Source: Ianthella basta
Taxonomy: Eukaryota > Porifera > Demospongiae > Verongiida > Ianthellidae
Length of the DNA: 64,000 nucleotides
Reading direction: 5' to 3'
Assembly: GCA_964019415.1 (NCBI GenBank)
Contig: OZ025877.1
Span: 6,027,185-6,091,184, forward strand
The notes beneath the pieces were generated by a model, which did not search any database, was not told where the DNA came from, and was given only the letters and a program-made list of their open reading frames with translations. The first letter of the stretch is position 1, and every line of letters begins with the position of its first letter. Both the position numbers and the translations under genes were made by a program. Below, piece by piece: positions 32,701 to 35,700 of this stretch.

Positions 32701-35700
32701 TAACTCTCTAATTGTTCTCTTACTCTCTTGCCCTTAGCTTTGAGACACGCACAGTTCAACTGAACTCTGTGAACAATGTCACTAGCCTCACTGAGCAGAC
32801 GGCCCAGCGCCTGCCTACCATTCCGCTGGTGGAGGTGTGGTTTGGCTTCTTTGCACTCTTCATCCTGGGGGCTGTCCACCTTGTCATGACTATCATACAG
32901 GTCATTGCGTACTTCCTGGTCAACTGGCCCAACTTCTACATACATGTACCACAATTTGTATGCTATTTGAGGTGAGATGAACCAGGTTATACTGTGCCAG
33001 CAATTAACAGGGCTGGGGAGGTGTGGCTGGCACTTCATGGGATAATCTCAACGCTGACTTGTAGTAACAGTGGGCACCACTGAGTGTTCCCAATGCTTAA
33101 GTGAAGTAGACAATAATGATGGAGATACTAATTCCAAATTAACCCTTGTATGTAGGTATCTGTTCGTGTGTAAGCGCAAACAAAAGGAGCCCTCTTCCTC
33201 TGATGGAACTTTCTTGGGTTTGAGAACACTGCACGGGGATCCCTCTTGTTCTGATGTCCCTCTCTTTGGTTTGAGAACACTGTACTACCTGGTAGGTCCC
33301 ATGCATATACACGTATGTACTGAGTACTGCTGTAGTAATGTAAGAATAATTGCATTAATAAGTGTCTCTGAGATGTCTGAATTTTGTGAAATGCTTTATA
33401 CTTTTCAACAGCTTTTTAAGTCATTGTAACTCAGTGACAAACTATTTTTGCCAACAATCGTTAGAAGATAAAGTGAAGTTCATTCTATGCAATTATGACA
33501 CATATATTGTAATCCTATTCATTAAGCCATATTCACACAGACAATCTCTTTTGTTTATTTAGTACACCATACAAGCAAGACTTATCTGCAAGGTCATATG
33601 TGCATCCATCACTCAGTACTCTTATTATTTATTTATTCCCCTTTTACCCCACCTCCTGACTGCCTCACATATTCCTTAAACTTTCCTTGTGGCCAGTAAA
33701 CCTCTGTTTGGCTGAGCAGCTAATGCTGTACGTCACTTCAGTAATCTCTCATACTGTATATTACTTAAATGTTCACAGATTGGTTTTCCTCCACTTTTTT
33801 GGCACTCTACAGTTTGTATAGTTTATTGCTTGTGCTCAATGACTGTGACCTAGGTGCCTTGACCTCTCTCTTGTGTAGGTCTTTCTGTCCTGTTCCATAC
33901 TCTCCCTCTGTTTCTGGGGCTACTTCTACTCCATCTGCCTCTTGCACATTGTGGTCAACAATGACCTCTTGCAGAGAGTGCTCAGATCTGTCACTAAGAA
34001 TGGTGCGTTATGGCCAAATATTATGTGCATCTGTGCACTCACATTACCGAGCATTTAGGTAGTTAGTCACTGCATTGGTGGGTACTGTTATTTTACAATG
34101 AGCACTTGCTATATGTTATAGCATTGATGCTGTGGTCAATGCAGCTACAGTACAGTACATATACATATGTACCTTCAAGACTCATGCAATCAGGAAACTA
34201 AACTTTTCTTCTACCACACAGGAAAGTCGCTCCTCTGGGTTGCTGCTTTGATCTCAGTTGTGATATATATCTATGCTGTCGTTGCATATGCTGGCTACCA
34301 GATCTACTTTGACGACTCCGCCAATGGCTCGCACTGCAAGACACTCTTTGAATGTGTTGTGTCTGTGTTCCGTCTGGGCCTACTCAACGGTGCCTTAGCA
34401 ACTGTAAGTGAATAGTTGAATGACTTGGTTAGTCTAATCAGAGCTAAACCCCTTCACTACTAACAGTTCATGCTACTAGTGGCTTCAGTCCCCACACATG
34501 CTGCACGTGCTGAACAGTGAGAAGCTGCATCAACTATCGATCTGTAGCATACGTATCATATGACTTTGTTCCTCATAGTGATTGCCTGATTATATGCATA
34601 TAGGTAATCTGTATTGAGCCCTAGCCTGTCATACCCACTTTACTTAACTGAGGGGTCGTAACATTTGTAACTTTGCAGTACTTGTTCAGCTGTACATTCA
34701 TATGCATGTACTTGTTATTTCTGCATGTTTCTATGTAGAATGAAAATGGTATCTTCAGGGAGAGTAATACAGAACTACTGGATGATTTTGGCTTGTACAT
34801 CCCACGAACCCTCTTTGACCTGACCTTCTTCATCATTGTGACAACAATTGGCCTGAACATCGTGTTTGGTATCATTGTGGACACCTTCTCTGAGCTCAGG
34901 GACGAGAGGGTATGTTGGTGCATTTGGTAGACGAACTGGAGCTGTGTGTGTGTGTGTGTGTGTGTGTGTGTGTGTGTGTGTGTGTGTGTGCGGTCTATAC
35001 AAGTGTGCTTGTAGGAACATCTAGATGTGCTACCACAGTTCGAATAACTAGTTGTTTAAGGTTGAGTCAATGTGCATTAGTTTTGCCTCATGCCTACCCT
35101 GCTCTACAGTACAAGACTATGGAGGACCAAACAGGATACTGCTTTATCTGCCATAATGAGGCCCATGAGTTTGAGAGACATGCGGAGGCAAGTACCTGAC
35201 TCTATTAATGCACTCATGTAGAGTGTACTATTTTTACTTCTTACATGTGTGTGTGTGTGTGTGTGTGCATGTGCTCCAACATGTGCAGCAGATCTCTAAT
35301 TATGTTCTATGTGCTCCCTGACTATCTCCACAAACATCTCATCACTTTGGATTCACATTGAGTACCTTCCCTCCTTCCACATTTGTGCAGGGCTTTGACC
35401 ACCATACTAAGCATGAGCACAACATGTGGGACTATATCTACCTCTGCCTTGAGCTAGACAGGATTGACAGCAGCAATCGGAATGCCATCCAGAAATATGT
35501 CTTTGAGCAGGTGAGACACATAATAGGTTGAGGGAGAGATTAAGGCTACTGATAAGGCTATTGCATAATATGAAATGTATAATGCAAAATTCAATCTAAA
35601 CTGAATACACCCTTGTATTTTGCAACATTCACAAACTGCAATCATAAAAGGGGCCTCCTGTAGGTCAGCAGTATTCATAAATGTATGTTGCAAATGTCTA

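Follow-up and report, generated by a model that had tools for sequence, protein, structure and literature searches.

Organization of the gene

The window, a stretch of 64,000 nucleotides from the sponge Ianthella basta (contig OZ025877.1), carries a gene that spans about 2371 to 37.65 kb, with all its parts on the plus strand. Its product shows the features of the IP3 receptor (IP3R)/ryanodine receptor (RyR) superfamily, namely N-terminal Ins145_P3_rec/MIR trefoils, a RIH_assoc region, and an Ion_trans channel domain. The joined N-terminal exons score 55.2 bits for Ins145_P3_rec (cut-off 23) and 64.1 bits for MIR (cut-off 25.6), and in Pfam the central exons reach 74 bits for RIH_assoc and the membrane exons 38.3 bits for Ion_trans, both above the curated cut-offs. 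Automatic gene models contained some false exons in regions where the two copies on contig C10 (the window gene and a tandem paralog) also resemble each other outside genes; exon ends were placed manually, guided by splice sites and by the less closely related copies on contig C6.

The gene probably begins at the ATG at 2371. The probable first coding exon (2371–2555; MSDSGSRPP...LRIGDTILLFSQEGQGFVYSDVS), which opens the suppressor/beta-trefoil-1 part, was recognized by its ATG, frame, and gtggga donor, and its true start is inferred. Next come an N-terminal piece (4625–4750; AANKYKAQKRL...ERKRAE, donor gtaggt), whose exon starts somewhat upstream, two beta-trefoil-1 exons at 5146–5310 (...YGNTVQLQHVFTGRYLSINPSATSLLESTNLR, in a 41.4-bit stretch to IP3R1 residues 94–195) and 5633–5725 (TELTSQNSPSCILRILPRYKVRSVGDEVSAQ), and a further beta-trefoil-1 piece with approximate boundaries (7100–7189; VMFESVMSEGQFLHCSALCFGHISQNLHSQ). 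They are followed by a MIR/beta-trefoil-2 exon (7680–7883), a MIR domain exon (8086–8346) that scores 33 bits alone, and two alpha-domain exons at 9118–9198 (ALGELSKFMQDPNARQKDHQKLVRNLR) and 9488–9595 (a third stretch, 8.3 bits). A whole-genome Ins145_P3_rec search, in which scoring goes exon by exon, listed only a gene on contig C9, and the N-terminal RIH domain (RYDR_ITPR) was unmatched in the window gene, with weak matches at five places on C6.

The central solenoid (ARM/RIH region; 17469–26537) comprises about 20 predicted exons, most of them with counterparts in the paralogs on C10 and C6. The RIH_assoc region (28371–28985; LMCDGQN...NYLREQPE) is RyR1-like and consists of exons 28371–28460, 28632–28781, and one starting at 28920; a genome search with this domain gave a match at C10:6055801. 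Six exons precede the membrane domain between 29397 and 31889 (29397–29480, 29641–29721, 29859–29931, 30282–30412, 31104–31226, and 31843–31889). By hydropathy, the first membrane helices up to the S4–S5 linker occupy 32738–34002, in exons 32738–32971, 33225–33291 (start uncertain), and 33879–34002. Downstream of the pore, the C-terminal domain is split between exons 35110–35187, with the first zinc half (CFICHNEAHEFERHAE), and 35391–35510, with the second (GFDHHTKHEHNMWDYIY...). The CFIC...H...H zinc residues are conserved wherever the aligned rows of the paralogs extend; the rows of C6e and C6f stop before the histidines. A C-terminal exon with a coiled-coil-like segment (37521–37649; KEDIADLKDMMQVLLDTFK) completes the reading, the final stop not being fixed.

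The intron at 35188–35390, which follows ...ERHAE, has a GC donor (GAG|gcaagt ... tgtgcag) and is thus of the GC-AG type. The introns are rich in TG/CA microsatellites (34945–34990 and many more within 1–38000), which mimic long reading frames. Short stretches at 35873–36128, 36744–36892, and 40101–40339 recur near other paralogs (C6:4312836, C10:5989408, C10:5990888, and C10:6025544) and are probably interspersed repeats.

The selectivity filter

IP3R and RyR share a GGG(V/I)GD selectivity filter. At the position where this motif is expected, the joined exons of the window gene (34403|34739) read LNGALAT^NENGIF. The upstream exon (34222–34403; ...CKTLFECVVSVFRLGLLNGALAT) takes one base of its first codon from ...TKN|G at 34002 and encodes S5, the pore helix, and the first half of the filter, while the downstream exon (34739–34909) encodes the post-filter loop (NENGIFRESNTELLDDFGLYIP) and S6. 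The two exons join in phase 0 (...FRLGLLNGALAT^NENGIFRESNTELLDDFGLYIPRTLFDLTFFIIVTTIGLNIVFGIIVDTFSELRDER) across an intron of 335 bases (34404–34738) flanked by gtaagt and tatgtag, and a gtatgt donor follows the downstream exon. From the filter to the S6 arginine, the loop measures 22 residues, compared with 13–15 in four IP3R and RyR sequences. The original prediction had described this replacement of GGGVGD, the clean joining of exons and phases, and a longer luminal loop, and all three descriptions hold.

That prediction had also named two findings that would overturn it, an additional exon within 34404–34738 that restores GGxGD and an assembly error at the filter. Translation of the 335 bases in six frames revealed no GGxGD. 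The relaxed pattern G[GAS][GAS][VILMA][GAS][DE] was likewise absent, in the three forward frames, from the filter intron of each of the eight paralogs described below, the start used being off by one or two bases for three of the eight introns. A hidden GGxGD exon was therefore rejected. The altered filter is attributable neither to chance nor to an error in the local assembly, as the same junction is found in each of the other seven paralogs.

Paralogs and canonical receptors in the same genome

We searched the genome (209 Mb, 96 contigs) with the window pore region and obtained at least 37 matches, which among the best candidates scored all lie on C6, C9, and C10. Besides the window gene, C10 carries a tandem paralog upstream (filter NGALTT^NTGGIF), and C6 carries six paralogs, one of them inverted, with MIR matches at six places. 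Their filters read SGGGLVT^NADGAF, GGGGLVT^NADEAF, GGGGLVT^DAGAAF, GGGGLVT^NADGAF, GGGGLVT^NADAAF, and HGGGLIT^NADIAPF. GGxGD is absent from all eight genes, and the intron position is common to them. In the alignment, the aspartate position is threonine throughout and the preceding glycine position is valine, isoleucine, alanine, or threonine; the C6 copies retain GGG, and the C10 pair additionally lacks one filter glycine and has another exchanged. The loop between the filter and the S6 arginine is 20–22 residues long across the group. The six C6 genes are packed into about 300 kb (about 4.23–4.53 Mb), and the inverted copy d is very near copy a (dN 0.027, dS 0.059 over 117 codons), which points to a recent duplication.

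The original prediction had proposed a search for a second, canonical IP3R, and one is present on C9, together with RyR sequence on C17. The C9 gene carries SGGGIGDVMRKP within one exon, with the filter GGGIGD, and scores 277.7 bits to ITPR2 versus 120.8 to RyR. C17 holds RyR repeats as well as two pores of the RyR type, one at 341972 and one at 352369; a RyR-type pore there scores 137.4 bits to RyR2 versus 77.7 to IP3R1, and the C-terminal part 161.3 bits to RyR1. Read through strong splice sites (gtgagt...acag), both C17 pores give SGGGI-A-DVIRSAAGDD, in which the aspartate is retained and the fourth glycine is alanine, while an alternative, weaker donor (gtgaaa) gives GGGIGD and a long insert; this reading covers the pores at 341972 and 352369, which lie to the right of a long RyR gene on the same contig. 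On C17, the RyR 3' part is present at least twice, about 62 kb apart (270001–290000 and 335001–355000), with proteins much alike; an additional copy of the pore is located at 341.9 kb, and RyR repeats are listed solely near the first 3' copy. Genome-wide, SPRY gave at least 45 matches, one of them on C17 and none inside the C10 or C6 genes, and the RyR repeat (PF02026) at least five, four on C17 and a weak one on C7, with none in the window gene.

Comparison of the two C10 copies revealed that the window gene is, overall, mostly under purifying selection. dN/dS is 0.079/0.24 across 222 codons from five membrane and C-terminal exons, and over 669 other codons it is 0.135/0.417, the latter from 21 of 27 exon pieces after six without a gap-free match were dropped. 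The C6 copies a and b give 0.064/0.222. Among the five measured exons of the membrane and C-terminal part, the one encoding the post-filter loop together with S6 shows the highest ratio (0.111/0.153); a ratio above 0.7 is also found in four other pieces (18200–18265, 25718–25750, 29397–29480, and 29641–29721), and the piece at 20604–20690 has zero synonymous changes between the C10 copies. The original prediction had held that this is not simple decay, in agreement with a summed dN/dS well below 1 and open frames across the eight pores. A pseudogene was rejected on the same two grounds.

Relationship to IP3 and ryanodine receptors

The pore helix and S6 had initially been regarded as clearly IP3R. 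Against solved structures, however, the piece from the pore to the C-terminus scores 86.0 bits to ITPR2 versus 80.4 to a ryanodine receptor, a difference far from that of the canonical C9 receptor. The N-terminal pieces are nearer to IP3R1 (82.8 bits) than to RyR2 (31.7 bits), while the central pieces, at E up to 0.1, match no solved chain other than RyR, at a weak 31.5 bits. The assignment to IP3R is thus unsupported, since the group falls outside both families and combines an IP3R-like N-terminus with an RyR-like centre.

In an unrooted tree of 12 sequences and 225 columns, the eight paralogs form one group (100/100), apart from IP3R (95/95) and RyR (100/98). The remaining rows are two IP3R and two RyR sequences, one of the latter a RyR2/RyR1 composite; three of the nine inner branches are starred, and the order inside the eight is weak. 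The branch to the paralogs measures 1.42, a length that may reflect age or speed of evolution. Of the original idea of an IP3R-like subfamily, the distinct group of eight genes is borne out by this 12-row, unrooted tree and membership within IP3R is not. The structure-match scores and the tree together reject a plain IP3R or a plain RyR. By its sequence, the window gene belongs to the superfamily but stands outside the IP3R and RyR families as currently defined, and it very likely represents a third clade, distinct from the IP3R and the RyR that this genome also carries and expanded to at least eight genes in two clusters.

With the IP3 receptors (ITPR1–3; PDB 3t8s, 3jav, 12ad), the window gene shares the N-terminal Ins145_P3_rec/MIR trefoils, the zinc-finger C-terminal domain, S6, and the absence of SPRY and RyR repeats in searches at the locus. 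It differs from them in lacking GGGVGD, in a short S5–pore loop, in the replacement of RTTGR, in a centre without an IP3R match at E up to 0.1, and in its position outside the IP3R group. With the ryanodine receptors (RyR1–3; PDB 5gky, 8uxf), it shares the central-region match, the short S5–pore loop, and a pore nearly as close to RyR as to IP3R, whereas GGGIGD is missing, SPRY and RyR repeats were not found at the locus, the N-terminus is nearer to IP3R, and the gene lies outside the RyR group.

Ligand site, calcium positions, and gate

The IP3-binding loop RTTGR is present as RTTGRG in the C9 IP3R and is changed in all four family genes readable there, within exon 7680–7883 of the window gene, to RKRKSDHGK in both C10 genes and to RKRRTD(H/R)GR in two C6 genes; two more C6 stretches end short of this exon. 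Within the alpha domain, exon 9488–9595 of the window gene conserves the arginine and lysine of IP3R1 DYRKN but not the tyrosine (DSRKN), and a hand alignment places the basic HQKLVR of exon 9118–9198 beside IP3R NRERQKLMR. The equivalents of the IP3-binding residues K508 and R511 of IP3R were likewise placed by hand. Judged from these residues, the basic ligand pocket is probably conserved but remodelled, and binding of IP3 by the window gene product is possible.

At two sites that are presumably the Ca2+-activation positions of RyR1 and IP3R, the glutamate of LLCE(G/N)HN is aspartate in the paralog family (LMCDGQN; 28413–28460), and the C-terminal motif TG(P/Q)ES is replaced by NAIQ in all six rows long enough to include it (35391–35510).

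S6 is well preserved in the alignment, with FGIIVDTF in the C10 and FGIIIDTF in the C6 genes compared with FGVIIDTF in IP3R. The IP3R gate residues are F2586 and I2590 (PMC8149723); at these positions, counted by hand in the alignment, the two C10 genes have F/V and the six C6 genes F/I. The post-filter loops of the eight paralogs contain 2–5 acidic residues, with a net charge of −2 to −4, compared with −3 and −6 in the RyR rows and 0 and +1 in the IP3R rows. As the two RyR rows are likewise acidic, this charge does not decide on permeation.

A proposed alteration of conduction and its alternatives

These observations might be accommodated by a channel of the third clade that retains its ligand-sensing and gating parts, has lost the filter carboxylate ring, and has altered permeation, a reading for which we see an even chance. 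The protein would be a tetramer in the ER membrane. An inositol phosphate or a related ligand would bind the N-terminal trefoil/alpha core, which would then shift the solenoid along with the zinc-finger C-terminal domain and thereby open the S6 gate. The open pore should pass Ca2+ poorly and favour monovalent cations, because it lacks the carboxylate ring, formed in IP3R1 by D2551, together with one to three of the filter glycines. In IP3R1, the mutant D2551A is pore-dead, whereas D2551E prefers monovalent ions (PMC8149723). That conduction is altered rather than absent would, from the sequences, be about an even call. Several features would speak against it, namely the high dN/dS of the loop/S6 exon, doubtful IP3 binding given the changed RTTGR, and post-filter loops whose acidity does not exceed that of the RyR loops.

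The leading rival is a regulator or tether with a dead pore. The paralogs would either join canonical IP3R in heterotetramers and exert a dominant-negative effect, or sense IP3 while tethering membranes at contact sites; we regard this rival as credible, if somewhat short of an even chance. It draws on the threonine that replaces the aspartate in all eight genes, on the substitution of the preceding glycine, and on the pore-dead D2551A mutant; G2498S in IP3R2 is also described as non-functional (PMC7939385), and the fact that one substitution at such a position suffices to kill the mammalian channel points to a complete absence of conduction. Single-residue mutants cannot, however, settle a pore that is altered as a whole. 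Two further studies describe pore-dead IP3R1 as still supporting store-operated entry (PMC10406432) and ER–mitochondrial contacts (PMC6700175), and MCUb, a pore-altered paralog of a tetrameric Ca2+ channel, is dominant-negative (PMC10107711); we use it as an analogy and do not take it as kin. On the other side, the pore helix and the S6 gate residues remain alike across the eight, eight genes beside one canonical IP3R are many for a pure inhibitor, and the branch of 1.42 makes co-assembly with canonical IP3R less certain.

A rewired filter in an otherwise ordinary Ca2+-release channel, with backbone carbonyls and the following acidic residues (NAD, NEN) substituting for the aspartate, appears unlikely. 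The GGG of the C6 copies and the acidic post-filter loops would suit it, but GGG is lost as well in the C10 pair, and the acidic residues differ among copies, one C10 copy having NTGG. Least probable by far is an IP3R copy that is in decay or wrongly assembled, or an error in joining the exons: apart from the odd motif itself, only a few exons with dN/dS near 1 between the C10 copies speak for it, and it is countered by the junction and frame common to eight copies on two contigs, by the summed dN/dS, and by filter introns that hold no GGxGD exon.

Parallels and implications

To our knowledge, IP3R and RyR have been taken as the two families of intracellular Ca2+-release channels in animals and their kin, and in the open-licence literature we found no report of such a clade for an animal or for an organism with canonical IP3R and RyR. 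Alzayady et al reportedly described in 2015 a divergent second IP3R, IP3R-B, in Capsaspora, beside a canonical IP3R as the paralogs are in the present genome. Divergent filters in expanded IP3R/RyR-like families are already known in protists. The Paramecium calcium-release channels (groups III, V, and VI) form a likewise expanded family with mostly divergent filters; three group IV channels have the full motif, others its core or variants, and group VI practically none, and some group III members carry an insert between the pore and the last helix (PMC3213138). The host there is a ciliate, and the likeness is one of description. Some oomycete ITPRs have a GGGLG(G/S) filter (PMC7399828).

More speculatively, and with some doubt on our part, the eight genes could belong to a third family of large ligand-gated intracellular channels that split off at about the parting of IP3R and RyR, with an IP3R-type ligand-binding head, an RyR-type centre, and an aspartate-free filter through which a cation other than Ca2+ leaves the ER. 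Because the clade combines traits of both, it bears on how IP3R and RyR parted. Eight constrained relatives without GGG(V/I)GD, beside a canonical IP3R and RyR, provide natural material on the role of the aspartate ring, and they let one ask whether such large channels can function when they carry a different ion or lack a pore.
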